A DNA stretch of 64,000 nucleotides. Source: Chrysophaeum taylorii. Its lineage: Eukaryota > Sar > Pelagophyceae > Pelagomonadales > Pelagomonadaceae. How positions within the stretch are numbered: position 1 is the stretch's first letter; every line of letters begins with the position of its first letter. The translations under genes and the position numbers were made by a program. The stretch is taken from contig JAQMWT010000126.1 in assembly GCA_029834535.1 (NCBI GenBank), positions 62,001 through 126,000 of the forward strand, in the 5' to 3' direction. The notes under the pieces were generated by a model that saw only the letters and a program-made list of their open reading frames with translations, ran no database searches and was not told where the DNA came from. Below, piece by piece: positions 1 through 53,440 of this stretch.

Positions 1-747
1 GCGACGGGTCGAGGTTTCGAAGACCTTGAGCTCGCGATCAAAGTCAGCATCCCGTTGGTGGTTGTCAGGGAGTCGAAAACTCGACTGTAAAGAGCGAGGC
101 GTCGTCTTCCGACCCACAACCTAGTCAGCCGAAAAAAAGAACTCCGACGCCTCGTCTCCGGGGAAAAAAGGCCGCGGTCATTCATGCGCGCGTTGTCAGC
201 ATCGACAACATCGTTTCGACGGGGCGTGAGAATGGCGCGCTGGCTAAAAGAGCCGCCGCGGGTCGTGGAAATAGTCTGCGAGGTCGCCGCCGTAGACGGC
301 TTTTTGGTGGGATCACTGTCTGGCTCTCGCGCCTACCTGATCCTTACTCTCGCGCCTACCTGATCCTCACCCTAAATCGGAGGACAGACAAACAGACAGA
401 CAAACATCTGCTGTGCCCTCACTGCCCTCACCCATGTCGCCGCCGCGGGGAACCCCACCCAGGCCGCCCGATCCCAGCAGGACGTCACCCTTCGTCGCAC
501 ATATATATGTCCGGCGGCAGCACGCGTACGACCTACCAAGGCGGGGCCCTTGGTCCTCTCTTCGCCTGCCCCACGCCTCGGCGATGACCCCGACTAGGTC
601 CCGCGTACTTATCTCCGCCCGTCAGGCACATCCCTCATACCCCACAAAAAAACCCACCCACATCCTTCATGCTCCCCCCACCCCCCCCCCTCTTAGGAGT
701 CGACATTTATTAAAGACAAACAAACATCTGTCGATTAGTAGTTAGGA
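1..747 (-). mobile_element. Helitron copy H1, 3' end cut by window edge
   Basis: Read on the minus strand, the copy starts at 747 with TCCTAACTACTAATCG and runs past the window start. Bases 1 to about 330 are the antisense of a degenerate Pif1-like helicase C-terminus; the same segment recurs near 29.3, 30.3, 51.7 and 62.9 kb. Helitrons are rolling-circle DNA transposons whose RepHel protein ends in such a helicase. This copy keeps no usable reading frame, so it is non-autonomous. A GACA/AACA-rich stretch at about 380-410 marks where a LINE has landed inside it. The family assignment rests on the helicase match and on the clean insertion junction of copy H4. Confidence 0.7.
411..718 (+). mobile_element. 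5'-truncated LINE copy inserted in Helitron H1
   Basis: This is the last part of a LINE reading frame (to the TAG near 598) plus its 3' end, which finishes CCCTCTTAG(C/G)AGTCGACATTT and then a GACA/AACA tail. The same 3' end recurs at 30.1, 50.3, 60.55 and 62.55 kb. It is flanked by the same 11 bases, ACAAACATCTG, at 400-410 and 720-730. That is the target-site duplication expected of target-primed reverse transcription, and it shows the LINE arrived after the Helitron. Confidence 0.7.
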
Positions 748-871
748 AGATTATTAGGTGTGACGTCACGAAGACGAAGGATCTGTTCCCACGACCATAT
801 ATATGATGTGTGTACAGCAGATACGAAGAAGGGTGCTACTAGTAAATCTGTAACGCAAGATAATAATAATA
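748..871. other. 5' flank of the channel gene
   Basis: This is 124 bases between the Helitron end and the channel ATG. It contains a TGACGTCA palindrome at about 761-768, which is a perfect CRE/bZIP-type site, and an ATATATGATGTG stretch. Both could be promoter elements, but this is inferred only from position. Confidence 0.3.
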
Positions 872-3109: not shown

Positions 3110-3269
3110 CTCTTTCTTTCTTTCTTACTTTCTCTCTCTCTCCGCCTGTGCCTCTACCATAATACGAGACGAGACGAGACGAGACGAGACGAGAGAGACC
3201 CCCTCTTGCTGGCGCCGGTCGATTCCAGAGTAGTAGACAGAAGACCGGGTCTCAACCCGATCGAGGGTT
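3110..3269. repeat. 3' flank of channel gene with (ACGAG)n microsatellite
   Basis: A TC-rich stretch is followed by about six tandem ACGAG units at 3163-3193. No gene was seen. The LINE remnant begins just after it. Confidence 0.6.
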
Positions 3270-3328
3270 TGTTTCTTTGTCTTTCGTTAAATCTCGACTG
3301 CTAGGTTTGGGCGGTCTATAACGAACCC
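3270..3328 (-). mobile_element. LINE remnant, left part (interrupted by Copia 1)
   Basis: Bases near 3280-3300 match the LINE 3' end (TGTCTTT...TCGACTGCTAG on the plus strand). The last about 20 bases (GGGCGGTCTATAACGAACCC) match the LINE coding region at 50922-50941. The match resumes at 8415, beyond the Copia element. The remnant therefore also has an internal deletion between its 3' end and this coding segment. Confidence 0.65.
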
Positions 3329-6300
3329 TGTGAGGAAGCTATGACACTTACCCCTAACTAACTAACTAACTTCAGACACTTACCCCTGCACCACGTATCC
3401 ATACGTCTTTCTCTTATCGCTAGTCTAACGCCTCATTCCATTCGTATCATGGTACCAGGTGGTGTCCACCGCGGTCGAACGACTGCTTGACTTCACGGAT
3501 AACGGCGACTCCTCCTCGGCTTCAGTTCATTGCTACGTGTTCGGTTCGTTATCGTTTATCATGTCCTCCTCGATCGAAATTAAAGATAGCAAGCTTTCGC
3601 AAAAACTTGATGCCTTCAGCGGTGAGCGACATCATCTTTTTCACCGATGGACCCGGCGTCTTGAAAAAAACATGATCATTTCCACCGGTGATCGCATTAT
3701 CTTGACCACTGACACTTGGACCAGCATTTCCGCCTCTGGCTGCTCTGAAGAAAAAAAAAATTGGTCTCAAGCAGCAATGCTGGTACAGTGCACTCGTCAT
3801 GGCGCTACCAATGCATGATACTGATCGTGCGGATATCCGTGAAAACCGCGATATGAACTTCACGCGGTTTTTTTTACAAGCGCATTACTGATGTTTACAT
3901 GGGCCATGGAGATCGTGTCGCTCAGTCTGCAATTGCTTCACTACATTCCTTGGTGTGCAACAATTATATCGATAAACTTGAGAGTCTTTTCTTTACAAGT
4001 TCATCACTCGTGTTCAAGTTGCTCGGCATCATCATCAAGATTTCCCTGACTCGAGTGCATTGCAATTGCTTCAGACGAAAGAAAGAAAATCCCCGACTCG
4101 CTCTTGTCTAAGGATCTCGTTGCACTTGCGCATCCTAAACTGTGCACATATATGATGGTTTCGTTGATCGCCTCCACAGTATACAGTTTTTGATTATCTT
4201 CCAACACCAATACCCACCCACGTCGGTCAAATTCCCAATACCCACCTCGGTCCAATCCCCAATACCCACCTCGGCCCCATCCACCCTCCTACCAAAACTA
4301 TCTTTCCGCCCCCATTCCACTCTTGCCTCCATCTCAATCCTCTCCGCCGCTCCTTGCGTTGCCACCCTCCACCACACCCTCTGTCCCGCCTTCCACCGCT
4401 GTCACCCTTCCTGACCCATCCCTTTCTGCACCCACCTACCCGTCTTTCAATTTCCATCTTCTCTCCATATCTCCCTCCATTCACCAAGTCCTTTCCTCCA
4501 CCAATGCCCTTACCGCTCTCCTCACCGCTCGTGAGCGCGACTACCTTCACAGCACCAACCTTCGTCTCGTTGTCTATGATACCGGCGCCAACGTCAACCT
4601 TTTTAACTCTTCATCTGGTTTCACTGATCTTCTTGACAATACTCAGCAGCACCCCACCACTTCCGCGCTCGGCAATGGCTCGGTTTCTGGATCCGGCACT
4701 GCTCACTTAACGTTTCCTTCAATTGGTCCTCTCGACAATCGTCGTCTTCCTTCTCCTCCACCCACTCTCTTCCGCCCCTCATGGCATCCATGTCGCGTTC
4801 CCGCATACCCTCCTCATCTCTCCTGGCCTTGGTGACAAACGGATTCTTTCTGATCATGCCCTTGAGCAAGTTGGTTACGATTGCCACACCATTCAGGCCG
4901 TTGGCCCTGCTTATCCGTAACGTATTTTACGTCACCGCCAAACGCATCACGTTATTCCTCTGCTTCGTCGCTGTGGTCTTCTTTTGATCGTCTGTTGGAT
5001 CGGCAATACGACCGCTGCGCCCTACGCGGACTACGTTTCACCTTTTGTTGCATTTTCTTCTTGCCCCCGTGTCCATGACCCTTGTGCGTTTCCCGCTGTG
5101 TCTCAACGCACTCAACTTACTTTCGACCGTTGGCATGCTCGTCTTGGTCACTACAGTCCCTCTAATATCCGCCGTTTGTCTTCTCTTGCTGTTGGCGCAC
5201 CGCTCTTCCCGAGCTCCGCGTCGCTTTCTTTTTGTCCTGCTTCTGCTCTCGGTAAAATGCATGCTGCGCATGTTGGCCAACGTAAAGCTCATGCTTCCGC
5301 TTCCACTTCGCCTCCTTCCTCCGAGCCTTTGTCTCGTCCACGTGCCGTTGCCCCATACCTTATTATTCACGCCGATCTCATGTTTGCCGGCGTCCCATCC
5401 TTCATATATCAAGATCGCGCGATCCTCACCATTGTCGATGATCATACGCGCCGCCGCACGCGTTACTTTGCTCCACGACACGATGCCCTTACGAACGCTC
5501 GTCAACTCGAACTTTTTCTGTCTATTTCTGTCTACCGTGGTTCGCCCATTCGGATATCGCATTGCCCTCATCTACACCGATCGTGACCGCTCTCTTATGG
5601 GCCAATTCGAAACCTTCTGTCTGGGCAACAATATTGCGCTTCGGCACGCTCCGGCAGCACAGTCCAAAACTTCACAGGCTCACGCTTTTTCCGGTGTTGT
5701 GGAACGCTCTCACCGCGCAACCGCTGATATTACTCGCACTCTTTTGGTACATGCGCACCGTCCACCTGATTTTTGGCGTTGGGCCATGGAAACGGCGGAC
5801 TTCATCTCTGAGCGTATGCCAAATGCCTCTAATCCTGGATATATGACGCCATATGAAATGCTACATGAAACTCTCCCGCGTGTCGATTTTCTTCGTGTTT
5901 GGGGTTGTCCAGCAGCAATTCTCACTGGCGACAAATAGCCTACCAAAGCTATAACCGGTATCTTCATTGGGTATCCCTCTGCAGGCCCTGGATATCGCAT
6001 ATTGCTTCAACGCCCCACAGGTCCTGTCATCCACACCTCGATTGATGTTGTTTTTGACGAAAATTTCGCTCTGCGTAAGTCACTGTCCTCTCAACCCCTT
6101 CCTCCGTCTCTAGTGGATTCTCGTTTTCCTGACTTATTTTATTACGACCCTCGTTTATCTTCCGCCGTCGCGCCCATGTCTTCTGTTTTTGATGCTCCGG
6201 AGCCGGCCTTATCGGGACTGATCACCCCTGAAACAACTCAACCGTCACTGACTACACTCTTACCGGACAATACGAAACGTGCACCATTACGTCGCGCCAG

Positions 6301-8414
6301 ACGGGGCCGACCGCGCAAAGTCGACCAACGCGCGTTACAACAACCAACAGACTTTTATACGGGCGATTCTATTTCCTCCTGTCACGATGTTGATTCTGTT
6401 TCCTCTGTCGCTTCTGTTTCCTCCTGTAACTCTTTGTATGTCTCTTCTGTTAGCTTTCGTTTGTTAGTTCATTATGTCTTCCTTCCCCTTTGTTTAGCTA
6501 ACACCCTTGTTGATCCCCATGCACACGTTTATTACTCTGCTTCCGAAGAAATGTCTCAGTATTCAGACCTTGACGAAACTACTATTACTTCCACCCATTT
6601 ACGTGAAGCTTTAGCTCCGACCAATCCTGAGCGTCCTGGCTGGTTGCAAGCCATCGCTAAAGAATACAGCTCTCTTGGTCAGCTTGGTTGCTGGGATGTT
6701 ATTCGCCTTCCTTCGACTTTTTCTGGCAACATTTGTACCCTCACGTGGATCCTCCACAAGAAGTATGACTTTGGCCGCTTCAAATCGTACAAGGCTCGCC
6801 TCGTCGTCCGCGGTTACACCCAGGTTCACGGCATTGATTATCATGACACCTACTCACCGGTTGCCAACATCGTCACGATCCGTTTCTTTCTAACCTTTGT
6901 CGCTGTTCATGACTGGGATTTGCACAAGTTGGATGTCAGCTCCGCTTTTATTCAAGCTCCCATTGACGAAGACATCTATGTCTGGCCACCCGAAGGCTAT
7001 GCTCCTCGCCAACCCACCGATGGTTCCAAAATCGTTTATAAGCTCCGTCGCTCTTGGTATGGTTGCAAACAAGCTTGTCGCAATTGGTGGCTTTATTTGG
7101 AACGCTTCCTTCTCAATGATTGTGGCTTCGTCCGCGGATCTGGTGACACTTGCCATTACAAGCTCGTGCTCAATTCTACCGTCCTTCTACGTCTCGTTCT
7201 TGTCGTTGATGATCTTCTTGTGGCGCACCCTCGTCATTGCATTGGCCATTACCAAGCCTTTTTCCTCCGTTTCCGCGCTTTCACTGACGTCAATGAGCTT
7301 GATCTCACTTCTTACGTTGGTCTTCGCATTACGCGTGATCGCTCCCAGAAAACCCTCACTCTTGACCAATCCCATGCTGTCCGTGAAATCCTTACCGAAC
7401 ATCGCTTCATCAACAGCAAACCCGAACTCACTCCCGCTCCCAAAGGTCTTCATCTTTTCTGCGGCTGATTGTCCTACTCCTGGTTCTCCAGATCACATTT
7501 TCATGGCACGCATCCCTTTTCGCCGTATTGTTGGCTGTGTCCTCTTCATCTTCATCATGACTCGCCCTGATATCACTTGGTCCGTCAATCAGTGTGCGCG
7601 TTTTTCCCACAATCCTGGTAAATAAACCCCACTGGCACGCTTTATCCCACACTCTGCGTTATCTCAACGGTTCTCAGGATCTTGCCCTTATTCTTGGTCG
7701 CGATTCTACCCTTCGTCTCTGTGGTTATTCCGACTCCAGCTGGGCCGACGACCCTGATGACCGCCACTCTACAACTGGTTTTTGTTTTCTCCTTGCTGGC
7801 TCTATGATAGCCCACTGCTCCCGCTCGCAGTACTTACTTGCTCGCTCTTCTTTTGAAGCTGAATTGCTCGCTCTTTACGCCGCTACTGCTGAGCTCTCTT
7901 TAGGCTCCTCAAACTTTTTGATGACTTTGATCTCCCTCGTCACACGGTACCCCAATGTATGTCGATAATAGCACCACCTTCACCCAAGTCCGTCTCCAAT
8001 GTCTCACACGGCGCACCCGCCATATTGACATTCGTTTTTAGAATACCGCCAAATATCATCATCGCAACCACATCATTGATCTCAAACACACACACCCCGC
8101 CTTCACAATCTTAGCGACATTTTCACCCGCAGTACGGAAGCTCCTTCCTTCCTCCGGCTTGGTGCTCGTTACCTCACCTCGTGATCTTCGCCCTGATCTC
8201 TGTTGTTTTTCTTTCTTGCCACAATGCCTCTATTTTGACGTCTTTAACCTCAAAGCTTCTCCTCTGTGAGCGTCTCACTTACCCCTTTTTCCTTTTTCTT
8301 TCTTTTCCAGCACCTGTGTGAGGAAGCTCTGACACTTACCCCTGCACAACGTATCCAGTATCCATACGTCTTTCTCTTATCGCGCTAGTCTAACGCCTCA
8401 TTCCATTCGTATCA
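3329..8414 (+). mobile_element. Copia 1: Ty1/copia LTR retrotransposon, broken
   Basis: An LTR element with both ends present. The 5' LTR is 3329-3449 and the 3' LTR 8317-8414; both begin TGTGAGGAAGCT and end TTCGTATCA. A 5-bp target duplication AACCC lies at 3324-3328 and 8415-8419. A primer-binding-site-like TGGTACCAGG directly follows the 5' LTR. On the plus strand, in copia order, are a gag-like start (about 3561), an aspartic protease DTGA motif (about 4580), a pre-integrase and integrase zone (about 5120-5940), reverse transcriptase (about 6600-7470) and RNase H (about 7640-7960). It is broken, with several interruptions of the coding frames. Apart from one short insertion and small indels the LTRs differ at only a couple of positions, so it looks fairly young. 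Confidence 0.93.
3355..3374 (-). mobile_element. 20-bp micro-insertion of the (TTAG)n-tailed retroposon
   Basis: The sequence TAACTAACTAACTAACTTCA is present in the 5' LTR and absent from the 3' LTR. It is flanked by a perfect 12-bp direct repeat, GACACTTACCCC, at 3343-3354 and 3375-3386. It matches the tail end of the repeat at 35731-36093. It is read as an extremely 5'-truncated retroposition event. Confidence 0.75.
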
Positions 8415-13299: not shown

Positions 13300-14990
13300 A
13301 ACACAATAATAGTAATAAGGGATCGGTCAAGTTTGGTCAACAAAGGTTTGGTCAATTTCTTTTAAGTTTGCTCGATTTTGATCTATGTTTTAAGGAAAAA
13401 AAAATCACCAGTTTTTGGTCACTTTCGATAGAAGAAGATTGATCAGTTAAGTTTGGTCACTCCTCCGAATGTTGCATTAAGTTTGATCAATCAGCCTTTC
13501 AAGTTTGATTAATAACCTTCTTGTTAGTTGGGGGTTAACAAGTTTGATCACTACTCCTCAAACTTCCACAGTAATAATAATTGACCAAACTTTGGCTTTT
13601 AAAATCAAAAACTTAAGGAGGCTGTTTAAGGGGGCGCGTGAGCGGCGCTTTTGGTCTTGCGAAAATAATAATGCTTTAAAAACGAGAGCTAGGTGGTGCA
13701 GCTATACAGAATCTACTACCGTGGCGTTACTCGCACGGCATGGGGACCCCCGCGTGACCGCCCGCCTTAAAGAAGGAGATCCATCCTAAGACAGCGCGGC
13801 GATATAGGAGAGCGGGCAGCGGCCTCGAGAGCAGATTTTTTTCCCACGGCTTGGCGTACTACTTTAAGCTGGTCCCATTTATTCTCGTACCTTCCATCGT
13901 TCGTAGAAGGCACCCAAACCGCGACTCACCACGGCGGTGTTGCCGTGGTCGTACGTCATTCTTCAGCAGCAACAAGCGGACATGGGCGGACACCAGACTT
14001 ATTACATGGTCTGCGTGAGACGGACGGATCACCCCATTCCAAAATCTTCTCTCCGAGAGGGAGCGCGTCTTTGATAATAATCGACTCGGGGTCGAGTTAA
14101 AACGCGAAACTCGACGACGACGACCTCGAGAAGAAACTGCGCGACAACTTGCCCCTGGAGCACCCAAAGATTGATTGCAGTCCCACACTTGCGCGGGACC
14201 GTACAGGACCCCACGTTCAGGAGTTCGTCACCGTCGCGTACCCGATCCGGAGGAGTTAGGTGTCCAGCTTGGACGTGGGAAAACGGCGAGCACGTGCCGT
14301 TACGCCTGCATAAACAACTCGTACGACCGTAAGTGAACACCTCCTTATCCTCCTCCTCCTCCTCGAGGATCTCGACCACCCCGCCCCGCCGCAAGATCTC
14401 CCCGGGAGCTGGTGCTGCACCGTCGAGCACTGTACTACGAGAAAGAAAGTCGGCAAATACAAGCTGCGGCGCGAAGGGATGTCAAGACATCGACAACAGC
14501 CTCGCTCCGGCGTGCCTTTTTTTCAGCACGCGTAACGATATTGTCTGCTTGCACGTCACAACGAGCAGCACGCACATAAAAGCTGCAGCCTTGTAGTAGT
14601 ATCTTGCAATTGAACGACAACGCTGTCGCGCTGCTGTTGTTGTTAGCCATGTTGTTGTTGTACGCGGCGGCTGTCTAAAAACTTGCCGCCCGCGTCGAAC
14701 GAACGTCAGATGCTCTGCTGCGAGTCGGCCTCGCGAACACACGTGCTGAACTTGGCATTGTTCGGCTAGGTCGAGGAGTAAAGTGGACTACCCTCGTGTT
14801 TGTTTTCACGCTCTGAGCTGCGACAGCGTACGCGGCGATCTCTCATAGTTTTGTTTATGTTCGTCAGGACACGCGAGAAACGACGAAACCCGCATCGATA
14901 CCGTCCTCCTCGTCGTTCGTTTCCAAGTCGAAGGACGACGCTCCGGAGTCACCACCACCGTGCAGAACGAACCGCTTTTGATGATCAGGC
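13300..14990 (-). mobile_element. Unidentified dispersed element, copy A
   Basis: This is the inverted counterpart of 43140-44960. The two share most of a 1.2-kb body, including the stretch RFNSTPSRLLSKTRSLSERR and the following text to FGCLLRTMEGTRING, and a stretch near 14935 matching 43320. One end (13325-13600) is crowded with variants of AAGTTTGGTCA and AAGTTTGATCA in both orientations. Such subterminal repeats are typical of cut-and-paste DNA transposons, where they bind transposase. No transposase family was recognised, the reading frames are broken in both copies, and no target duplication was found. Confidence 0.6.
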
Positions 14991-18921: not shown

Positions 18922-21614
18922 CTAGCCCGGAGGTAAGAGTCCTGTTCTCGCTCGCCGCCGTCGAGAGCGCCCCACTCGAAAAAATGGAACGTGAACAACG
19001 TCCCAGCCAAGCCGCTCTAGCAGTCGGGACTTGAAGCCGTTTTTTACTGTCGTTCCCTTGAGGTAGTGGTACGGCCCATCGACTTCGACCGCGCACTTGG
19101 TGTCGGGTTGAGCCACGTCGAGCGTCAACCCCTCTTCGGTCACGTGCTCGAAGACGTACGGCGTCCAGCCAACTCGGTCGAGCGCAGTCGCAACGTCGCG
19201 CTGGAGTTGGGATGGTGATGGGCCCTGACGTTGAAACGCTTCCTGAAGCATCTGCTGGTGCTTTGACAGCGGGGAGCTCCGGTCGGGCCACGCGAGGTGA
19301 AAGTGCAGCGAAGCAAGGTGGAGCTGCGACAAGTGGCGATCATCGAGGGCATGGAGATCTCTGACAGCTCTGCGAGCGAGCTCGGCGAAAAACTCGGGGT
19401 CCTTTTTCCAGTCGACGCAGGCGAAAGCCCACGCCGTGTTGGCGAGTTCTTGTGGTTTGAACTCCTCGTCTAGCCGCTTAGAAGCTGCGCCGGCGATCGC
19501 CGCGAAAAGCTGAGGTGCCTCGATGCCTTCCGTCGCGAACGCCCACGACGTGTTGGCGAGCTCCTGCGGTTTGAACTCGTCCAGCCGCTTCGAAGCTAAG
19601 CCGGCGATCGCCGCGAAGAGCTGAGGTGCCTCGACGTCCGCCGTCGCGAACGCCCACGACGTGTTGGCGAGTTCTTGTGGTTTGAATTCGTCCAGCCGCT
19701 TAAAAGCTAAGCCGGCGATCGTCGCAAAGAGCCGAGGTGCCTCGATGCCCGCCGTCGCAAAGGCCCACGCCGTGTTTGCGAGGTCCTGCGGATTGAACTC
19801 GTCTAGCCGCTTAGAAGCCGCGCCGGCGATCGCCGCGAAGAGCTGAGGTGCATCGATGCCCGCCGTCGCGAAGGCCCACGCCGTGTTGGCGAGGTCTTGT
19901 GGTTTGGATTCGTCTACCCGCTTAGAAGCTGCGCCGGCGATCGCCGCGAAGAACTGAGGTGCATCGATGCCTGCCGTCGCGAAGGCCCACGCCGTGTTGG
20001 CGAGGTCTCGTGGTTTGAACTCGCCCAACCGCGAAGGAGCCGCGCCGGCGATCGCCGCGAAGAGCTGAGGTGCCTCGATGCCCGCCGTCGCGAACGCCCA
20101 CGCCGTGTTGGCATGTTCTTGCGGTTTGAATTCGCCCAACCGCGAAGGAGCCGCGCCGGCGATCGCCGCGAAGAGCTGAGGTGCCTCGACGTCCGCCGTC
20201 GCGAAGGCCCACGCCGTGTTGGCGAGGTTCTGCGGATTGAATCCGTCTAACCGCTTAGAAGCTGCGCCGGCGATCGCCGCGAAGAGCTGCGGTGCCTCGA
20301 TGCCCGCCGTCGCAAAGGCCCACGCCGTGTTGGCGAGGTCCTGCGGATTGAACTCGCCTAGCCGCTTTGAAGCTGCGCCGGCGATCGCCGCGAAGAGCCG
20401 AGGTGCATCGACGTCCGCCGTCGCGAACGCCCACGACGTGTTGGCGAGGTCCTGCGGAATGAACTCGTCTAGCCGCTTAGAAGCTGCGCCGGAGATCGCC
20501 GCGAAGAGCTGCGGTGCCTCGATGCCCGCCGTCGCAAAGGCCCACGCCGTGTTGGCGAGGTCCTGCGGATTGAACTCGCCTAGCCGCTTGGAAGCTGCGC
20601 CGGCAATCGCCGCGAAGAGCTGAAGTGCATCGATGCCCGCCGTCGCGAAGGCCCACGCTGTGTTGACAAGCCCCTGCGGGTCGAACTCGTCTAGCCGCTT
20701 AGAAGCTGCGCCGGAGATCGCCGCGAAGAGCTGAGGTGCCTCGATGCCGGCTTTCGCGAAGGCCCACGCCGCGATGGCGAGGTCCTGCGGATTGAATTCG
20801 CCTAGCCGCTTAGAAGCTGCGCCGGCGATCGCCGCGAAGAGCCGAGGTGCCTCGATGCCCGCCGTCGCGAAGGCCCACGCCGCGTTGGCGAGCTCCTGGG
20901 GATTGAACTCTCGAACGCAGCGCCGACAAGAGCCTGCGAGGGCCATCACACGAGAATCGCCTCGGATGCCGCGATATCGGCCTCCCAGTTTGGCAACACG
21001 GTGCGCGGCAGTCGCCAAATTCCGAGCGTCGAAGTCGTTCCCTCGAGCCGCGAAGAGCGAGAGAATTGACTCGGGAGTCGCATCGCGGCCCGTAATCTGT
21101 TTACCCCATCGAATTTGTTGCCATCGCGGTGACTCGCTCGGTGTGGCGTGCGTCGCGGCGCAGCGTCTCAACCCCCTCGTCGTCGCGTCGGCGACTGAGG
21201 TGAACCGCGCACTTCTCGACGACCGTCGCGGTTGTCGTACGTGTCAGACAGTCGTCGCCTCGGCGGCGATCGAGACCGGCGCACCACGTCGCGGCACAAC
21301 TTGTCTACATGGTCAGGGATTCGTCGTCGTGTTATCGGGGAATGCGAGCGGCGTCGGTCGTCTCGCCCCTGCTGGTCTTCGTACGATCGGTATTGCCTCT
21401 TAAGATGCTGGGGCGAGTCGTCGCGTCGCTTCTCCCAGTCTCCTCGTGTATCATCGCTGCGCCACGGGTCTCGACGGCGAGGCGTGGGCTCGTCGACGCG
21501 CCAGTTCCGATCGTCGCCGCGGCGTACTCTCTTTGGGCGTCGATCCATCAAAAAAGTCCGTTTGCACCAGGAGCAGCGGACCTCTCCTGAATCTTTAGAG
21601 ATACCTACCCTCAT
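18922..21614 (-). CDS. OPR-like repeat protein with RS-rich N-terminus and C-terminal RAP domain (two frame breaks)
   Basis: Probable organelle RNA-binding protein. From the minus-strand ATG at 21614 come about 148 Arg/Ser/Asp-rich residues (RRSRSPPRRRLSD and similar). Next are about 13 nearly identical 38-residue repeats of the form NPQDLANTAWAFATAGIEAP, then a RAP domain (AVEVDGPYHYL...RLLERLGWDVVHVPFF). The repeat length and the WAFA core fit octotricopeptide (OPR) repeats, which with RAP domains act in chloroplast or mitochondrial RNA stability and translation. The frame breaks twice, each time at a homopolymer: at the C5 run 21172-21176, where the RS-rich frame stops at 21168 and the repeat frame opens, and at the A6 run 18979-18984, where the RAP domain leaves its expected FFEW text. 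A one-base run-length change at each would keep the frame. Sequencing indels, recent decay, or a tiny intron at the first site are all possible. Confidence 0.8.
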
Positions 21615-29068: not shown

Positions 29069-29154
29069 CGCCTGCCCCGCCACCGACCCACACGGGTTAG
29101 GTTATAGGTTATAGGTTATAGGTTCTAGGTTAGTTTTAAAAAGTTGAATAAAAA
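28561..29154. repeat. T- and TC-rich spacer with microsatellites
   Basis: It contains a T10 run (28600-28609), a (TC)n tract at about 29039-29064 and four TAGGTTA-type units at 29097-29131 (GGTTATAGGTTATAGGTTAT). No gene was recognised. Helitron H2 begins at 29155. Confidence 0.5.
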
Positions 29155-30146
29155 CAAGTGCAGGCCAGTAAGTTCACCTAGTCCCAATCTCTAACCCCAG
29201 TAAGTTCACCTGGTCCCAGTAAGTTCACCTGGTCAGTAAGTTCACCTAGTCCAAATCTCAAACCCCAGTAAGTTCACCTGGTCCAAGTAAATTCACTTAC
29301 AGCGCGCGTGTAGACGCCGGGAGGGGGCTTATCGGTATTGCGCAGCACGTGTGGGGTAGGGTGGAGTCGTCGACTCAGAAGAGTATATCTCCTCGGGGTT
29401 GCCGATCGACAGAGAGCCACGTAGAGCTGGACGTGACAGAAGACGGGCTTGGGCAAGAGGACGCCGACCTCGCGGGGCGTCTGGCCCTGGCTCTTGTTGA
29501 TCGTTTGGCGTCGGCGGGCCTTAAGGGATACAGGTTGGAGGAGCCTCGGTGACACGACACGATCGATCATGTATCTGGTACCGTTGCAGTGGCCGTGCGA
29601 CGGGTCGAGGTTGCGAAGACTTTAAGCTCGCGATCAAAGTCAGCATGCCGTTGGTTGTCAGGGAGTCGAAAACTCGACTGTAAAGAGCGAGGCGTCGTCT
29701 TCCGACCCAACCTAGTCTGCCGAAAAGAACTCCGACGCCTCGTCTCCGGGGGAAAAAGGCAGCGGTCATGCGCGCGTTGTCAGCATCGACAACATCGTTT
29801 CGACGGGGCGTGAGAATGGCGCGCTGGCTAAAAGAGCCGCCGCGGGTCGTGGAAATAGTCTGCGAGGTCGTCGTAGACGGCTTGGGAGGATCAATGCCTG
29901 GCTCGCGGGCCTACCTGATCCTTACCCTAAATGGAGGGACAGACAGGCCCGTCCTTTCTTCGCCTGCCCCACGCCTCGGCGATGACCCCGACTAGGTCCC
30001 GCGTACTTATCTCCGCCCGTCAGGCACATCCCTCATACCCCACAAACCCACCCACATCCTTCATGCTCCCCACACACACCCCCCTCTTAGCAGTCGACAT
30101 TTAAAGACAGACAGACAGACAAACATCTGTCGATTAGTAGTAAGGA
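29155..30146 (-). mobile_element. Helitron copy H2, full ends
   Basis: On the minus strand it runs from TCCTTACTACTAATCG (30146) to GGCCTGCACTTG (29155). The 3' part holds four to five copies of GGTGAACTTACTGG, a subterminal repeat also seen in H3, H4 and H5. Upstream is a Pif1-like helicase C-terminus on the minus strand: HGHCNGTRYMIDRV, then TINKSQGQTPREVGVLLPKP and VFCHVQLYVALCRSA, which correspond to the final helicase motifs of RepHel. Further upstream the helicase text is in several frames. The next plus-strand base after the 3' end gives a T in sense, as expected for Helitron insertions. Its 5' end abuts H3 with no base between. Confidence 0.75.
29944..30115 (+). mobile_element. 5'-truncated LINE copy in Helitron H2
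   Basis: It starts GCCCGTCCTTTCTTCGCCTG directly after GGGACAGACAG and ends GTCGACATTTAAA before a GACAGACAGACAGACA tail. Its truncation point differs from those of the copies in H1, H4 and H5, so it is a separate insertion at the same Helitron site. Confidence 0.7.
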
Positions 30147-30898
30147 CAAGTGCAGGCCAGTAAGTTCACCTAGTCCCAATCTCTAACCCTAGTAAGTTCA
30201 CCTGGTTCCAGTAAGCTCACCTGGTCCCAGTAAGTTAACCTATAGTGCGTGTGTAGACGCCGGGAGGGGGCTTATCGGTATTGCGCAGCACGTGTGGGGT
30301 AGGGTGGAGTCGTCGACTCAGAAGAGTATATCTCCTCGGGGATGCCGATCGACAGAGAGCCACGTAGAGCTGGACGTGACAGAAGACGGGCTTGGGCAAG
30401 AGGACGCCGACCTCGCGGGGCGTCTGGCCCTGGCTCTTGTTGATCGTTTGGCGTCGGCGGGCCTTAAGGGATACAGGTTGGAGGAGCCTCGGTGACACGA
30501 CACGATCGATCACGTATCTGGTACCGTTGCAGTGGCCGTGCAACGGGTCGAGGTTTCGAAGACCTTAAGCTCGCGCTCAAAGTCAGCATGCCGTTGGTTG
30601 TCAGGGAGTTCAAAACTCTACTGTAAAGAGCGAGGCGTCGTCTTCCGACCCAGCCTAGTCAGCCGAAAAGAACTCCGACGCCTCGTCTCCGGGAAAAAAA
30701 GGCCGCGGTCATGCGCGCGTTGTCAGCATCGACAACATCGTTTCGACGGGGCGTGAGAATGGCGCGCTGAAAGAGCCGCCGCGGGTCGTGGAAATAGTCT
30801 GCGAGGTCGCCGTAGACGGCTTGGAGGATCACTGTCTGGCTCTCGCGCCTACCTGATCCTTACTCTCGCGCCTACCTGATCCTTACCCTAAATCGAGG

Positions 30899-30934
<36 letters not shown>

Positions 30935-31773
30935 AACCAAAAGAGAGGGTAGGAATGCCGGTCCTGGTGTGTGCGAGTGCCCGGGGCTATATATACCCCT
31001 GTGCTTCCCCATCATAGTGAAACGTGAACATCTGGGGCGAGTCAAGCATGTATGTGTATGCGAGACGATGGGGACCCAGCAGACGACGACGCCATCTGCT
31101 TAAGATGAACATCTGCGTCGGAGATGAACACCCGGTCCTGGTAAGTGAAAGCGCCCAGATGAGGGGGGTCTAGTGTTTGTGCTAGACGATGGGGCTCCAG
31201 CAGTTGGCGACGGCAACTGCTTTGTAGACACTCACACACTCCTTGCGGCGCAGCGGTGGGGCGGATTCGAACGCGCGATCCACCTCGAGCGCTTTAAGGG
31301 CCCATAACCAAAAGGGAGGGTAGGAATGCCGGTCCTGGTGTGTGCGAGTGCCCGGGGCTATATATACCCCTGTGCTTCCCCATCATAGCGAAACGTGAAC
31401 ATCTGGGGCGAGTCAAGCATGTATGTGTATGCGAGACGATGGGGACCCAGCAGACGACGACGCCATCTGCTTAAGATGAACATCTGCGTCGGAGATGAAC
31501 ACCCGGTCCTGGTAAGTGAAAGCGCCCAGATGAGGGGGGTCTAGTGTTTGTGCTAGACGATGGGGCTCCAGCAGTTGGCGATGGCAACTGCTTCGAAGGC
31601 ACTCACACACTCCTTGCGGCGCAGCGGTGGGGCGGATTCGAACGCGCGATCCACCTCGAGCGCTTTAAGGGCCCATAACCAAAAGGTAAGGGTAGGAATG
31701 CCGGTCCTGGTGTGTGCGAGTGCCCGGGGCTATATATACCCCTGTGCAAACATCTGTCGATTAGTAGTAAGGA
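30147..31773 (-). mobile_element. Helitron copy H3, head-to-tail with H2
   Basis: The copy has the same ends as H2. The helicase remnant (about 30240-30540) is nearly identical to that of H2. The GACA tract at 30899-30940 is followed not by a LINE but by a 371-bp tandem repeat. After that the common 5' end resumes (CAAACATCTGTCGATTAG at 31746-31763). The copy ends 97 bases upstream of the carrier gene start and so may contribute to that gene's upstream region. Confidence 0.7.
30941..31745 (-). repeat. 371-bp tandem repeat (about 2.2 units) inside Helitron H3
   Basis: Units begin near 30941, 31310 and 31681 (GGTAGGAATGCCGGTCCTGG) and are almost identical. On the minus strand each full unit contains GCGTTCGAATCCGCC, which resembles the B box (GGTTCGANTCC) of a tRNA-type pol III promoter, but the flanking stem does not pair as a real tRNA T arm. 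A 65-codon minus-strand frame in each unit is probably fortuitous. It could be a tRNA-derived SINE or a tandemly duplicated filler sequence. Confidence 0.55.
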
Positions 31774-35720: not shown

Positions 35721-35730
35721 TGTCTTGGTA

Positions 35731-36093
35731 ACTAACTAACTAACTTCAGACCTCTCCCGAGCATGGGAGCCAGGCCGGACCGACAGGAGCCAGTCCGGAA
35801 TCACGGGCCTGTAGACGAGGGGCGCCGAAAGGTGGGTCGGCGGAGAGTGATCATCAAGCTTGTCGCCATGCGACGAGGAGACCGCGATGTGACTGACAAC
35901 CAACTCGTCGATAACCTTCCGTCTGCGCCCCGGCCATACCCCGTCCCACTGCGAACGTTCCGGCTGCCAACCGGCCCGCCCGAGAGGCGAATAGGTGCCA
36001 ACCTACGCCGGGAGGGCGGATGCCCTCGCAAGGCTCAGGATTCATGAGGCACCGTCCTCCATCGCAACCATGCGGTCGGCGATCAGGGTAAGG
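35731..36093 (-). mobile_element. SINE-like retroposon with (TTAG)n tail, full-length copy
   Basis: The 363-bp insert is flanked by perfect 10-bp duplications TGTCTTGGTA at 35721-35730 and 36094-36103. Read on the minus strand it starts CCTTACCCTGATCGCC and ends GGGAGAGGTCTGAAGTTAGT plus further TTAG units. A related copy lies at 63445-63814 and truncated copies at 3355, 38532 and 39825. The non-coding size, tetranucleotide tail and 10-bp duplications fit a SINE. A clear pol III promoter was not seen, so it could instead be the 3' end of an unseen LINE. A 94-codon plus-strand frame in it is not conserved as protein between the copies. Confidence 0.75.
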
Positions 36094-36103
36094 TGTCTTG
36101 GTA

Positions 36104-38854: not shown

Positions 38855-38929
<75 letters not shown>

Positions 38930-43139: not shown

Positions 43140-44960
43140 GTCGCCCGTCCTTATGACCCCCAGCTAAGTTTGGTCACTCGCTTCAGTTTTTGGTCAATCC
43201 GTATCTTTTGGTTGACTAACCACTTGTACTGTTAGAGAGCAAACATAAGGGTTCGTCGTGACAAAACAAGGCCCGCCGTGATCAAGCTTTCAGCGGCTCT
43301 GCATGTCGTCGCGCTGTGGTGGTGACTCCGGAGCGTCCTTCGACTTCGAAACGAACACGGTATCGATGCGGGTTTCGTCGTCGCTCGGGTCGCGTGGTGG
43401 TGGAGTTAAACACGCCGACGTCGGTTGACCACGACGCCGAGAAAGAAAAACACAGAAGTCATCGCGCGCCCACCAGACGGTAAGAAGGTAAACGACCATG
43501 AGAGATCGCCGAGTACGCTGTCGCAGCTCAGAGCGCGCTTTAAAAAAATACGAGGGTAGTCCACTTTTCTCGACGACCTAATAACCAAGAGATGCTAAGT
43601 TCAGCACGTCTGTGTTCTCGATCGAGGCCGACTTGCAGCAGCATCTGATGTTCGACACGGGCGCCAAGTTTTAAGACGGCGCGTACAACAACAATATGGT
43701 TAACAACAGCGCGACAGCGCTGTCGTTCGAGTGCTATATGCGAGATCCAGCAGCTTTTTTATGTGCGTGCTGCTCGTTGTGATGTGCAAGTAGACAATAC
43801 CGTGACGTGTGTTGTTGTAAAAGGCACGCCTGCTCTCGGAACCTACGTGCCGACAAAAAAGATCCAGCTATCGCGCGAAGCACGAGGCCGTGTCGGTCCT
43901 CATCAAGGGCTGCTTTATGGAGGGCAAGTCAGGCGGCTCTTCTTTCTCGGCATATGCGTTTTTTCTCGTAGTACAGTGCTCGACGGTACAGCAGCAGCTC
44001 CCGGGGAGATCTTGCGGCGGGGCGGGGTGGTCGAGATCCTCGAGGAGGAGGAGGAGGATAAGGAGGTGTTCACTTACGGTCGTACGAGTTGTTTATGCAG
44101 GCGCAACGGCACGTGCTCGCGTTGCCGTTTTCCCACGTCCAAGCTGGACAGCTAACTCCTCCGGATCGGGCACGCGACGGTGAGGAACTCCTGAACGTGG
44201 GGTCCTGTACGGTCCCGCGCAAGTGCGGGACTACAATCTATCTTTGGGTGCTCCCTCCAGGAGGAGCGTTGCCTCTCGCAGTTTCTTCTCGAGGTCGTCG
44301 TCGTCGAGTTTCGCGTTTTAACTCGACCCCGAGTCGATTATTATCAAAGACGCGCTCCCTCTCGGAGAGAAGATTTTGGAATGGGGTGATCCGTCCGTCT
44401 CACGCAGACCATGTAATAAGTCTGGTGTCCGCCCATGTCCGCTTGTTGCTGCTGAAGAATGACGTACGACCACGGCAACACCACCGTGGTGAGTCGCGGT
44501 TTGGGTGCCTTCTACGAACGATGGAAGGTACGAGAATAAATGGGCCCAGCTTAAAGTAGTACGCCAAGCCGTGGGAAAAAAATCTGCTCTCGAGGCCGCT
44601 GCCCGCTCTCCTTGCGCGTATCGTCGCCGCGCTGTCTTAGGATGGATCTCCTTCTAAGGTTCATTTGGGGGGGTGCCCATGCCCATGCCCGTGCCCGTGC
44701 CCATGCCCATGCCGCGCGTGTAAGGCCACGGTAGTAGATTCTGCGTAGGTGCACCACGTAGCTCTCGTTTTTCAAGCATTATTTTCGCAAAACCAAAAGT
44801 GCTCACCTGGCCCCCTCAAAATGCCTCCCCTTAAGTTTGATTGTAAAAGCCAAAAAGTTTGTGGTCAAACTTCCAATTTTTTCAAGTAACTTGTTTAAAT
44901 TTATCCTTCTTAAGCATACATCAAATCTCGAGCAAACTCGAAAGAAAATTTTTCCGTAAT
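43140..44960 (+). mobile_element. Unidentified dispersed element, copy B
   Basis: This is the inverted partner of 13300-14990. It starts with CTAAGTTTGGTCACTCGC and ends amid AAGTTTGTGGTCAAACTTCC, so both ends carry the AGTTTGGTCA-type motif. The internal reading frames are broken in several places. A tract of CCCATGCCCATGCCCGTGCC near 44675-44715 is specific to this copy. It ends about 10 bases from the stop codon of the DUF4116 gene, so it probably supplies that gene's 3' untranslated and polyadenylation region. Confidence 0.6.
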
Positions 44961-44972
44961 AACTTCCCCTTA

Positions 44973-47879: not shown

Positions 47880-49119
47880 TCCTTACCCTCTTTGTGGCAA
47901 TTTCTGACTGGCGTAGTGGTTGAGGATATAAATCCAACCCAGTAATAATAATTAATTATAACCCCCCTCAAATCAAATCAAGTCAAATCAAATCCTTAGG
48001 TCGAAAAACTAGCCCTCTCGAAGAAGAGAGGGTGTGCCGAAAAGCTCTTCGGGTGTGATTAATGCGTTGGCGAAACCGTATTCACCAGCTCAGTATATCA
48101 GTATATTGCATACTAAACGGATCGCAAGAAACGGGAAGTTCAATGTGCGTCCCGTTTGTTGGTGGCTACGGTGGTGTTCTTCCGCATTTTCTTTTTGCTT
48201 CCTAGAAAGAGATGTTACCTATAGGACGCGAGAGTGCTTCGGGTGTTCTGCCGTATTTTCTTTTCACTGCTTCGGACGTCCTCCGTTTTTACTCGCGGCG
48301 ACATAATCCATGAAACGTCGATCATCTTTGTTGGTTGTGGTAAGGGGAAGGCCAGATTTCGTGCATTCCGCGGAGAGATTCCCGCCGCCGGATTTACGCG
48401 GGAAAACGAAAGAGGCACAAGCAAGTTCCTTTGAAAAGGAACTGGTACTCGAGCGTCCTCGCCCAGGAGTGGCATGGCGAAGAGAAAGTGTACAAGCGCG
48501 CTGTTGATGCGTGGAAGCGCTTATGGCGTCTTCGAGACGATGGCTTTCTCGAGCGCGAAGAACGTGCGGTCCGTCGCGACAAAAGATGGGGCGCTTGCGG
48601 GCCGCTCGTCGTTAAGCTGGTGCCGCCGGCGACGAGGATGCGGCGATGCTGCGTGAGCGTCAACGTGAGCGTATAGCAATTGCACAGCGGAGTGATGATC
48701 GTCTAGAAGACGCGCGCGCCGGCGACGAGGACGCGATGTGCGCGCTCGAGGACGAACGCGAGGCTGGTCGTCTGCGCCACGCCGTATGCCGCAAGAGTCG
48801 CAGGGAAGGTGCTAAACGAGCTGGAGGCTGCGATGTGAGCGGGAACGCGAGGCCGCCCGTCGAAGAATCACGAGCGAGCGCCCGATGCTACAAAGAAACA
48901 AGCTGATGCTGGTACCGAGTCCGCAATTTTGGCGTTGGACCGCGAGCGCGAAGCGCAGCGTGCGCGCATGCGTCGTCTTCGTCGCGAACGTATGGACAAA
49001 TTCCTCGAGTACGCGGCGGAGGACGCAACAAGATTTGGCGACCTCGACAACGAGGAAAGCGCTTTCTTCGTTTCTTCGCGACAATCTTCCAACATCCCTT
49101 TCGTTTCTCGTACTGTCGC
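47880..49119. other. Unassigned; Arg/Glu-rich frame fragments
   Basis: Pieces in different plus-strand frames (RERQRERIAIAQRSDDRLED near 48650; REREAQRARMRRLRRERM near 48950) look like parts of one charged helical protein interrupted several times. The last frame runs into the Copia 2 LTR near 49120. Such Arg/Glu-rich segments occur in some Helitron-associated proteins, but this is too weak to assign. Confidence 0.35.
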
Positions 49120-49282
49120 GATGGATACGTTCTTATGGTAAAGGAATACGAAAGGGGAGAATCGATACAAGAAACGATTCTACAAGATACGTAGATAGGG
49201 GTAAGTGTCATAGCTTCCACGCACAGGTGCCGGAAAAGAAAGAAAAAGGAGCAAGGGTAGTGTCGTGGTGTCATGATGTGTC

Positions 49283-49302
49283 TTTAAATGTCGACTGCTA
49301 AG
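49283..49302 (-). mobile_element. 20-bp micro-insertion of the LINE 3' end
   Basis: TTTAAATGTCGACTGCTAAG is the exact 3' end of the LINE (minus strand CTTAGCAGTCGACATTTAAA). It is flanked by ATGTGTC at 49276-49282 and 49303-49309, or 8 bp if one base is shared. It is a retroposition event truncated to about 20 bases, inside Copia 2. Confidence 0.7.
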
Positions 49303-49990
49303 ATGTGTCATATTAACGTGGAAAGTAGCAAGAATATGGAAGAAGATGACATAAGGTTGCATGAATCAGCAAGTGAGAAAGCGGGCGCGAAGGCGAAAGA
49401 AGAGATGAGTCTCAGGGCTTCGAGTCAAAATATCGCTTAAGTTGTCCAGGCGTGGGATGTGCTGTAGATTCATTATCCCATTGCGGTGGTATGCCGCCGC
49501 GATGGACGCGAGAATATATGGATTCCTGGAGCAATAGGAAATGAAATGAGCTAGCGTAAAGACAATAGCCGGAGGTTGAATGGCGGTCATCAGGGTTATC
49601 AGCCCAACTGGAGTCGGAGTATCCACAGAGAAGAAGGTCAGAGTTGCGGCCAAGAACGAGGGCAAGATCTTGAGTGCCATTGAGATACCGAAGACAGCGG
49701 CTGGTTGCATGCCAATGAGACTTGCCAGGGTTAATGTGCACACTGATTAGTAGTCCACGTAATGTCAGGGCGTGTCATCACAGAAACAAACAACCAACAA
49801 TGCGACGAGATGGGATACGAATCATGAAGGAAGCATTGTTCTGGGGAGCCATTAGGGGGACAGTCTGCAGCAGAAAGACGAAGACCTTTCGGAGTCGGTG
49901 TGGGTTCTGGTTTCGTGGGTCAATAGCAAGAGTGCGACGTGCGTAAGCCAACATAAGTTCGCAGGTCATCCTAACTACTAATCGACAGAT

Positions 49991-50271
49991 GTTTGTTTGT
50001 TTGTTTGTTGTTTGTTTGTTTGTTTGTTTGTTTGTTTGTTTGTTTGTTTGTTTGTTTGTTTGTTTGTTTGTTTGTTTGTTTGTTTGTTTGTTTGTTTGTT
50101 TGTTTGTTTGTTTGTTTGTTTGTTTGTTTGTTTGTTTGTTTGTTTGTTTGTTTGTTTGTTTGTTTGTTTGTTTGTTTGTTTGTTTGTTTGTTTGTTTGTT
50201 TGTTTGTTTGTTTGTTTGTTTGTTTGTTTGTTTGTTTGTTTGTTTGTTTGTTTGTTTGTTTGTTTGTTTGT
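49991..50271. repeat. (TTTG)n microsatellite, about 70 units
   Basis: The tract lies between the Helitron 5' end and the LINE 3' end (TCTTTAAATGTCGACTGCTA from 50271). In LINE sense it is a (CAAA)n tail. It equals the short GACA/AACA tails of the other copies, greatly expanded. Long Cys/Leu/Phe/Val frames across it are artefacts. Confidence 0.95.
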
Positions 50272-51545
50272 CTTTAAATGTCGACTGCTAAGAGGGGGGG
50301 GAGGCATGAAGGATGTGGGTGGGTTTGTGGGGTAGGAGGGATGTGCCTGACGGGCGGAGATAAGTACGCGGGACCTAGTCGGGGTCATCGCCGAGTCGTG
50401 GGGCAGGCGAAGAGAGGACGGGCCCCACCCGTAGGTCGTACGCATGCTGCCGCCGGACGTATGTGCGACAAAGGGTGACGTCCTGCTGGGATCGGGCGGC
50501 CTGGGCGGGGTTCCCCGAGGCGGCGACATGGGTGAGGGCGGTGAGGGCACAGCGAGCCCGGCCTAATGCGTTGGCGATCCCCCACTCACGGTAGATGCGG
50601 CGAGTTTTTTTTGGGCCGCCTTTGCCTCTGTGTTCAAAGTTGGCGCAGCCGCTTGCCACCCAGGTTCGCGCAGCGATGCGCTCTGCGCATGTTTGGGCGA
50701 GAGCGTGGCACGCCGCGCTGGCCTCACCGAAGGCACCAAAGACAAGGCCGGCGACGGTGCCGTAGCTACGTAGCCGCTGTTCGACAGGGCCCAAGAAGCC
50801 AGGCGGTGGGGCTGTACCCAGCTGGGGGATGATGGCGTCGATGCCGCGGGCGTGAGCGAGGTATTCGGAGTGGACTTGCGCTGCGCGCCGATCGACAGGC
50901 GACGGGTGGGAGGGATGGAATGGGCGGTATAGAACGAACCCCATGCATGTGACTCGGGTTTTGATGTCGTAGAGTTGCTCCTTGTTGTCGAGCGTGGTGA
51001 GGATGTCTGGGACGACTTGACGGCGGGCGAGATTGCCTCGGTACCGGCCGTAGAGGCGCGTGCGAATGGTAGGGGCGACGACGTCAGCAAAGATGCCGAA
51101 AACCTCGGACAGGGCTGGGATGCCGGCCTCTTTGACGCTGCCGTGGACGCAGTCGAGCTGGCCGTCATGCCAGGTGGTCCGCGCTCCTCCGCGGTTGACA
51201 AGGTTGGCCTGCGTGAGAAGCACCTTGCCGTGAGCGTCGAGAACGACGTCAGTGCCCAGAATGCGAGTGCCCACGAGGCCCAAACAAGCTGGAGAGGGGT
51301 AGCCAAAGTACTGGGCACACATCTCAGCCCAGCAGCGGTTGGGGATTTGAAGGGCAGAGCTGGGCCACGAGCTGATGAACGTGGTCGAGAAGCGATCCCA
51401 TGAGGACGCCGCTACTCGAAGTGCTTCGGTGATGGGAAGGGTGGCCGCAAGGCGCTGGAGTGCAGTGGCCCGAGCTGTCTCGTGCTGGGAGGTTACTACT
51501 ACCTGGTTAGAGGACGCTGGAGTTGGGGTATGAGCACGGGTGTCG
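50272..51545 (-). mobile_element. 5'-truncated LINE with PD-(D/E)XK-like C-terminal domain, in Helitron H4
   Basis: This is the longest copy of the LINE 3' part. Its minus-strand frame 51322-50375 (315 codons, open at the truncated 5' side) reads ...RRQVVPDILTTLDNKEQLYDIKTRVTC..., with PD and D-x-K spaced as in restriction-like (PD-(D/E)XK) nucleases. GPVEQRLRSYGTVAGLVFGA then FGEASAACHAL follow, a block I associate with protist reverse-transcriptase proteins. R2- and NeSL-type LINEs use such a nuclease to nick the target. The reverse transcriptase itself is missing here. The frame is intact where present. The 5' junction with the Helitron is near 51545. Confidence 0.7.
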
Positions 51546-53440
51546 CCCGATTCAGGGTAAGGATCAGGTAGGCCCGCGAGCCAGCCATTGATCTTCTAAG
51601 CCGTCCACGGCGACCTCGCAGACTATTTCCACGACCCGCGGCGGCTCTTTTAGCCAGCGCGCCATTCTCACGCCCCGTCGAAACGATGTTGTCGATGCTG
51701 ACAACGCGCGCATGACCGCGGCCTTTTTTTTTCCCGGAGACGAGGTGTCGGAGTTCTTTTAGGCAGACTAGGTTGGGTCGGAAGACGACGCCTCGCTCTT
51801 TACAGTCGAGTTTTCGACTCCCTGACAACCAACGGCATGCTGACTTTGAGCGCGAGCTTAAGGTCTTCGCAACCTCGACCCGTCGCACGGCCACTGCAAC
51901 GGTACCAGATACGTGATCGATCGTGTCGTTGTCACCGAGGCTCCTCCAACCTGTATCCCTTAAGGCCCGCCGACGCCAAACGATCAACAAGAGCCAGGGC
52001 CAGACGCCCCGCGAGATCGGCGTCCTCTTGCCCACAAGCCCGTCTTCTGCCACGTCCAGCTGCTCTACGTGGCTCTCTGTCGATCGGCATCCCCGAGGAG
52101 ATATACTCATCTGAGTCGACGACTCCACCCTACCTCACACGTGCTGCGCAATATCGACCGATAAGCCCCCTCCCGGCGTCTACACGCGCACTATAGGTGA
52201 ACTATAACTGGGACAAGGTGAATTTACTGGGGTTAGAGACTGGGATTAGGTGTATATAGTGACCAGGTAAACTTACTTACTGGGACCAGGTGAGCTTACT
52301 GGGGGTTTTAGAGTAAACTCAAAGTTTAGCGGCGTTTGCGGATCAAAGCAGCTTAGATTGGCGGAGGCGAGAGCGACGAGCTCGAAGGAGTGGGTGTGAG
52401 GACGAGTGGGTTTGCGCCGAACTTACTGGGGTTAGAGATTGGGACTAGGTGAACTTACTGGCCTGCACTTGTCAACAACTAAAACAATGCGCAACACAAC
52501 TGTGCAGCAAGCTTGTAGCTGCACGTGTCACCAGATTTTTCCAGAATCGTCAAGATAGATCTACCAGTTGCAACAAGCTTGGTTGCAATTTCTAACAGAA
52601 ACGTCGAAGTGAGCACAGGCTTTCTGAGCCTCTTTAGGTTTTGTAGGCGAATAGCAACATAAGCCAGGAGAAAATAAGTATCAACACCTCCTCGAGTCTG
52701 CGTATTTTGCGCAAGGTTCCCTAGATATTGCGGCCGGTAAAATTTTCCAACTCGAACGAACAACATTGCAGCAGCCAAGAGTAATGATGGCATTCAGGCA
52801 TCCAGGTCACTCGAGATAAAGCTTCGCTAAAGCTTCGCGTAATGTGCACAAACAATGCTGCCGTCATCCATGCGAGGTTCCGTCAAATTGCAGCACGTAG
52901 TACGAGGCAATGTGCCTGGATATGCGTGGGAGCAACACAGGGATATGCTACACAAAGGGGGGGGGGGGAGGAACACGTAATGAACTAACAGACGAAAACT
53001 AACATGCTTGACATACAAGGAATGACAAGAGGGTCGGAGGAGACAGAATCAACAGGTTGGTCGGCTAACTTTGCGTGTGCAGTTTCGGGGCTTTGTGGTA
53101 AAATGGTATCGGATACATTGGTTGGTGCCGTTGTATTTGGGCTTTGTGGTATGGTGTTGGATTTATCGGTTGGTGCCGTGCGAGTTTCTGTTGGTGATAA
53201 AACGGTATCGGATACGCGTGGGTTGTGGTTGTTGTATTTGGGCTATTGGGGTAATGTGTTGGACGTATTATTTGGTGGATGTAGGGGTATGGTGTTGGAC
53301 GTATTGGTTCCATGATGGCCTTTCCTTTTTCGACCTTGCTTAAGAAGTTTCGCCGGGGCAGTACGTAAGAATGGCTCGGCTCGCGCGATGGGGTGATCAG
53401 TCCCGGTGGTGAAGCCGGCACATTCTTATTAAACACAGGG

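Follow-up and report, generated by a model that had tools for sequence, protein, structure and literature searches.

Our window is a stretch of 64,000 nucleotides at positions 62001-126000 of contig C126 from the 70.8-Mb genome of Chrysophaeum taylorii, a marine alga of the pelagophytes (C, L and P followed by a number denote contigs, extracted loci and proteins, respectively). It holds five occurrences of a Helitron-like unit of ~1 kb, here called H, two of which are arranged head-to-tail, together with pieces of a long interspersed nuclear element (LINE). An earlier sequence-only reading had placed the LINE at the GACA/AACA tract of four H copies, and this is the arrangement we observe in H1, H2, H4 and H5, with H3 lacking the LINE. 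H5 falls outside the range given for this pattern, 1 to 52471. Rfam and tRNA scans of the window returned no match, and a word search of the main text of the C. taylorii genome paper (PMC10366177) found no mention of transposons.

The Helitron-like unit and the LINE copies in the window

The features are listed below by position and strand. LINE positions refer to the copy at locus L029, the first 37 bases of which are host DNA.

1..747 (+), H1, interrupted by the LINE, its left part cut by the window start
383..406 (+), GACA/AACA tract on the left side of the LINE in H1
410..709 (+), LINE 3ˊ piece in H1, reference 2467-2755
29154..30145 (+), H2, head-to-tail with H3
29946..30105 (+), LINE 3ˊ piece in H2, reference 2596-2757, followed by a tract at 30106-30125 and the H terminus
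30146..31773 (+), H3, without a LINE
30899..30934 (+), GACA/AACA tract of H3
49283..49303 (-), 21-bp LINE 3ˊ end where H is absent, with GACACATC on both flanks (the last two bases are common with the LINE start)
49968..52472 (-), H4, with a LINE
49990..50272 (-), (AACA)n tract from the LINE 3ˊ end to the H4 terminus (TGTT on the + strand)
50273..51545 (-), H4 LINE 3ˊ piece, reference 1501-2757, including the coding region of the C-terminal linker and nuclease
60369..60554 (+), LINE 3ˊ piece where H is absent, with GACACACACACC after it
61729..62477 (-), fragment from the upstream LINE region, immediately beyond H5 and another GACA/AACA stretch
62496..64000 (-), H5, with two LINE pieces, running off the window
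62532..62600 (-), H5, second LINE piece
62613..62714 (-), H5, first LINE piece, altered in its last bases

The H unit starts with TCCTAACTACTAATCGACAGA on the + strand of H2, followed by a TGTT/TGTC tract that reads GACA/AACA on the other strand and lies ~20 bases inside the 5ˊ terminus. Past the tract is a stretch that apparently encodes the C terminus of a Pif1-like helicase, with the helicase motif TINKSQGQT...QLYVAL, and one of two H copies scanned gave a partial match to the Pif1 2B domain that is below the cut-off (9e-5). The unit ends with ...GGCCTGCACTTGT. Most of the 68 H 5ˊ ends listed carry the 5ˊ TC of Helitrons. In place of the 3ˊ CTRRT of Helitrons, most of the 67 H 3ˊ ends listed read CTTGT, and three ends that were folded gave no hairpin better than those of shuffled sequences. 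By eye, the flanks of the listed ends look mixed for insertion between A and T. From these sequence features, H is probably a Helitron relative with its tract between the 5ˊ end and the helicase remnant, in agreement with the sequence-only reading, and it is named Helitron-like because the canonical CTRRT end and the 3ˊ hairpin both fail. Genome-wide, a 19-base word at the H 5ˊ end occurs 2549 times (0 in the backwards-read control). There are also 40 genome matches to Helitron_like_N, some of them pieces of one gene and 39 of them above the cut-off, in open frames of up to 1882 residues.

The LINE junctions and the nuclease

All pattern counts reported here are exact-word counts. The backwards-read control gave 0 matches genome-wide for the LINE and H words counted, and for bare GACA/AACA repeat patterns it nearly equals the forward count because a reversed repeat matches identical tracts.

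The LINE has a fixed 3ˊ end, ...GTCGACATTTAAA, that is joined directly to GACA. When ends were counted genome-wide with a 16-base LINE word, GACA came next after 2153 of 2434, and the same is true for 121 of the 133 distinct ends in our extracted sequence. The other 12 read GACT, GACC, GACG, AACA, AACT, GATA and similar. At the opposite side, 5ˊ truncation is near-universal among the loci examined, and the truncation points are scattered over the LINE part examined, with no single point common to the copies in H. The aligned junctions in the window are at 410, 29946, 51545, 62714 and 62600, where the sequence-only reading had 411, 29944, 51545, 62710 and 62600. Neither of the two outcomes that the reading named as refuting was observed, with LINE 3ˊ ends lying mostly at GACA and truncation points differing widely, and its proposal that the LINE entered the H tract repeatedly and independently is supported. 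The insertion of only 21 bp at 49283-49303, which has a target duplication, represents an extreme case of 5ˊ truncation.

In H1, the LINE is bordered on either side by the same 11 bases, ACAAACATCTG, if the first LINE base is counted, just as had been described previously. A script that scores exact duplications gives H1 a 0, since additional bases are present at its LINE end. At C340, where both flanks are host DNA, the 5ˊ flank ends with GGACATAGAAAG and the 3ˊ side starts with GACATAGAAAG, and a host-flanked LINE at C574 likewise shows GACATT. Because these copies and the one at 49283-49303 show GACA in both flanks, GACA is the target rather than a tail of the LINE. Among 68 junction pairs, 17 have exact duplications of at least 10 bases, versus 2.75 under shuffled pairing.

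In an alignment of 19 rows hand-picked from protein hits, the D, D/E and K residues of a PD-(D/E)xK core are present in every row and the P is present in 18, and the structural model of the C-terminal part has a fold that matches the R2 linker and restriction-like endonuclease (RLE) by Foldseek. A nuclease of this R2 type had been suspected from the letters of the window, and these results agree. A reverse transcriptase profile of the 19-row alignment (A5) matches R2Tg at 1e-5, and the relative P0005 matches RVT_1 at 4.1e-6, just below the curated cut-off, compared to 0.03 for the LINE itself. In a reverse transcriptase tree that was built without references for the named RLE clades CRE, R2, R4, NeSL and HERO, the LINE falls on a long branch inside the 19-row clade, which has 100/100 support. 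Among the marks of target-primed reverse transcription, 5ˊ truncation is present and target duplication is present at some sites only. Pfam searches of the H4 LINE open reading frame, of the upstream LINE fragment and of the upstream LINE part in L072 (C35:11450-14100) gave no match, and a single-sequence search found no relatives with solved structures. Although the CCHC knuckle in the linker of RLE LINEs is given as highly conserved (PMC5678591), the strict pattern CX2-3CX7-8HX4C is found in 0 of the 19 rows, a test that is weak because only one of 10 more distant relatives has the knuckle. Together, the sequence and the model indicate that the element is probably an R2-like LINE with an RLE.

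We favour, at a probability of roughly 0.85, an RLE LINE that targets GACA and for which H supplies most of the long targets. The R2-like LINE would nick DNA just 5ˊ of GACA and prime reverse transcription there, and a second cut would fall a few to ~15 bases downstream, in keeping with the duplicated flanks of 6 to 15 bases that are observed. The resulting target duplication would restore GACA on both sides of the LINE. The very abundant H would provide most long GACA/AACA targets of the genome, and LINE copies would pile up in H tracts, often several per tract, because of this supply. The position and orientation of the LINE, its independent truncations, GACA at its 3ˊ junction, duplications at some sites, H units with empty-length tracts, stacking and the nuclease motif and fold are directly observed, whereas the order of cutting, the specificity of the enzyme and the role of target renewal in stacking are inferred.

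Several results weigh against this account. No exact duplication of at least 6 bases is present in 43 of the 68 junction pairs, and for the 25 pairs that have one, 11.9 are expected under shuffled pairing. Duplications inside a microsatellite are easily mimicked. A few LINEs are located away from GACA, such as those at AACTAACTAACTT in C682 and at GATAGG in C455. Finally, the C-terminal model has a mean predicted local distance difference test (pLDDT) score of 60.7 and a best Foldseek E-value of only 3.2e-3.

Some observations on the protein stand apart from these questions. The model of full-length P0005 is poor (mean pLDDT 52.5). The upstream LINE part in L072 holds a C/H-rich stretch that appears RING-finger-like by eye. 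A RING finger (9.4e-7) is present in the relative P0064 and a DnaJ domain (1.7e-9) in P0037. Deposited C. taylorii gene models P0001-P0004 join LINE fragments to KH, WD40-like, kinase-like and other domains, and these joins may be annotation artefacts.

Tract, Helitron-like unit or inherited composite

The association between the LINE and H extends well beyond the window. We extracted the 30 best LINE matches (L009-L038) and the 30 best H-core matches (L039-L068), and because of this selection both samples lean to query-like copies. An H terminus is found within 400 bp downstream in 16 of the LINE-selected loci and not in the other 14. A script assigned the core-selected H units to 19 with a LINE, nine empty, one with another insert and one with neither, and it assigned all 82 H tracts of the extracted sequence to 38 with a LINE, 31 empty, four with another insert and nine unclassed. 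These classes are to be read with the reservation that the 'empty' C290 apparently carries a degraded LINE scrap, that some 'LINE' calls rest on a far-downstream end, and that the class 'none' at C358 represents a LINE piece with an inverted H behind it. Genome-wide, a LINE end stands next to an H terminus 669 times, as counted with a 13-base LINE word that enters stacked copies more than once.

Orientation and distance were tallied on contigs C2-C9, with LINE ends taken to C9:162993 and H termini to C9:359205. A same-strand H terminus lies downstream of the LINE end within 100 bp in 34 of 85 cases and within 300 bp in 46, compared to one and three of 85, respectively, for the opposite strand and three of 85 for positions up to 100 bp upstream on the same strand. 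Counted from the H side, a LINE end is found no more than 100 bp inside the terminus in 30 of 100 cases. Among LINE ends more than 300 bp from any exact H end, 20 further loci were extracted. In nine of these, H with altered ends is present on one side or both, and L084 is a doubtful tenth case. In some of the 20, the extracted stretch contains no H, and the LINE end is followed by, for example, GACACCCGAAG, GACGTATGG or GACATCATACC.

With over half of the sampled LINE ends falling in H, the LINE could be homing to H as such, guided by sequence next to the tract or by the chromatin or replication of the Helitron. A comparison with the supply of tracts does not support such homing. Genome-wide there are 3562 RACA tracts of five or more units (a five-unit count of 23340 minus a six-unit count of 19778), and at least 2163 of them directly adjoin an exact H terminus. 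Because this share is close to the share of LINEs in H, the counts show no LINE preference for H beyond the tract, and LINEs also enter unrelated GACA sites outside H at C340, C574 and window positions 49283-49303. One comparison points the other way. Among pure GACA tracts, 13 lacked an exact H end; four of them proved to be H with altered ends, and a LINE fragment lies beside only one of the nine that are outside H, although nine tracts are too few for a test. We consider homing to H unlikely. The LINE pattern at the Helitron-like repeat is real, and it looks like a common sequence taste and not exclusive targeting of a Helitron.

That GACA follows most LINE ends, and that the tract beside the H4 LINE is very long, could also mean that the repeat is a variable 3ˊ tail belonging to the LINE and not a target. 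We rejected this explanation, which is highly improbable given that host-flanked copies carry GACA in the 5ˊ flank at non-repeat sites as part of a duplication, that H units bear the tract without a LINE, and that some junctions, GACTAGACATT and GATAGGG among them, lack a repeat.

Many tracts hold more than one LINE. At L107, seven LINE pieces occupy a single H tract, the first two probably deriving from one copy that an insert has divided. The six LINE 3ˊ ends have different truncations and are mostly separated by GACAGACAAACAT(C), with a 14-base scrap between two of them. Stacked LINE ends also occur in L108-L111, C318, C530 and C659, and the spacing of stacked neighbours is widely spread, with 11 and 13 bases the commonest (5 of 44 each). 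These stacks are most simply read as serial insertions in which a target duplication recreates the site, and renewal of the target would then be the cause of stacking. A different process is evident at C553:82383-84553, where a LINE piece forms a ~732-bp tandem array that is a tandem duplication because one truncation point is repeated.

Empty-length tracts are found in 1451 H units genome-wide, a count that allows a gap and would take a tract with a tiny scrap of LINE for an empty one; the sequence-only reading had called for a search for such empty Helitrons. A single composite of LINE and H, copied as a unit with its tract junctions merely inherited, is ruled out as a general account by these tracts and by truncation points that differ among most loci, and with LINEs present outside H and different LINE pieces in neighbours of the C6 array we give it almost no weight, even though tandem H units at C50 have LINE and tract in common and the C268 and C6 arrays share a segment.

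These loci bear more directly on whether a Helitron carries the LINE around, as had also been suggested. At C50, two tandem H units agree in LINE piece, truncation and tract, and a third unit, in which the LINE piece is longer, shares their right-hand tract. The C268 and C6 arrays have ~2 kb in common at 98%, including a LINE remnant. Both cases suggest copying of loaded H units, whether by rolling-circle transposition or by other duplication. Neighbouring H units in L106, which is part of the C6 array, bear different LINE loads, as expected if the LINEs entered after the array formed, and this counts against carriage. A broader proposal is a self-renewing depot, whereby H spreads GACA/AACA landing pads, the target duplication of the LINE rebuilds them so that they are never exhausted and gather stacked LINE tails, rolling-circle copying spreads loaded pads, and each family, when active, diverts insertions of the other from host genes. 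We offer this only tentatively and hold it to be less probable than its opposite.

Comparison with known systems, and other repeats

LINEs with simple-repeat targets have been found before, and Dong is one example. A LINE can also be tied to a DNA transposon, since the Tx1L element of Xenopus, which has an apurinic/apyrimidinic (AP)-type endonuclease, reportedly inserts at a defined site in the DNA transposon Tx1D. The LINE described here resembles Tx1L in its set place within a DNA transposon family. It differs in that its nuclease is an RLE, its host unit is Helitron-like, and its target is a microsatellite that is used elsewhere too. Restriction to the transposon, as reported for Tx1L and Tx1D, was not found, with LINEs also present at unrelated GACA sites. 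Work on Tx1L target specificity (Christensen 2000) is cited in a paper that places other transposable elements among LINE targets (PMC8869645).

Both transposons and microsatellites are included among the targets of LINEs, and within the RLE clade HERO some families are microsatellite-specific, and Togen is specific for (TG)n (PMC4640811). As with HERO, Togen and Dong, the present LINE prefers a simple repeat, but its repeat is GACA/AACA, and a single transposon family is the source of most long tracts. Unlike R2, for which the target is 28S ribosomal DNA, the LINE has a different target and lacks the strict CCHC knuckle pattern noted above.

A parallel for H is found in the Helentrons DINE-1 and HINE. 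DINE-1 units carry microsatellites, and (GTCY)n is cited in related elements (PMC4067079). Like these, H is an abundant, non-autonomous rolling-circle-type unit with a microsatellite, and a GTCT repeat reads as GACA on the opposite strand. In contrast, H begins with TC, ends with CTTGT and keeps a helicase remnant. The available part of PMC4067079 describes no LINE targeting of the DINE-1 or HINE microsatellite.

The sequence-only reading had called the pairing of LINE and Helitron a new partnership. Microsatellites and other transposable elements are already known as LINE targets. For the exact combination of an RLE LINE, a GACA microsatellite derived mainly from a Helitron-like unit, and pad renewal, no precedent was found in the open-licence literature searched, nor did the same search, which left most subscription papers outside, yield a paper in which a LINE targets a microsatellite borne by a Helitron. 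The genome offers a natural data set of thousands of junctions, empty-length tracts and stacks for the study of target choice and second-cut position in RLE LINEs. Another suggestion from these data is that, via a microsatellite, a transposon family can be a safe harbour for a second one.

Two further repeats are located in or near the H units. The first is represented in the window as follows.

30935..31747 (+), 371-bp repeat, 2.2 tandem copies, in the H3 tract

At loci picked by H or LINE, this repeat is found within H tracts or next to them, pointing either way, in the window and in C268, C356, C502, C530, C548, C592 and C6. It is often tandem and closes with an extra copy of its first ~70 bases. 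By eye it has a stretch resembling the 3ˊ half of a tRNA, on which the window tRNA and Rfam scans found nothing. The second repeat, of 367 bp, is bordered by TTAG/AACT repeats and is present at 35729-36093 and 63446-63809 with 96% likeness. It interrupts H5 and apparently also a LINE end in L106. At C682:185697-188353, a LINE copy lies inside the AACTAACTAACTT stretch of this repeat.

Elsewhere in the window, positions 13581-14958 and 43316-44868 form an inverted pair that is 78-89% identical and is probably another repeat family. Open frames at 4194-7468 look by eye like a broken copia-type long terminal repeat retrotransposon. A long open frame at 18922-21243 (-), in which a 111-bp repeat (37 residues) recurs in 13.4 copies, by eye resembles algal organelle RNA-binding repeat proteins.

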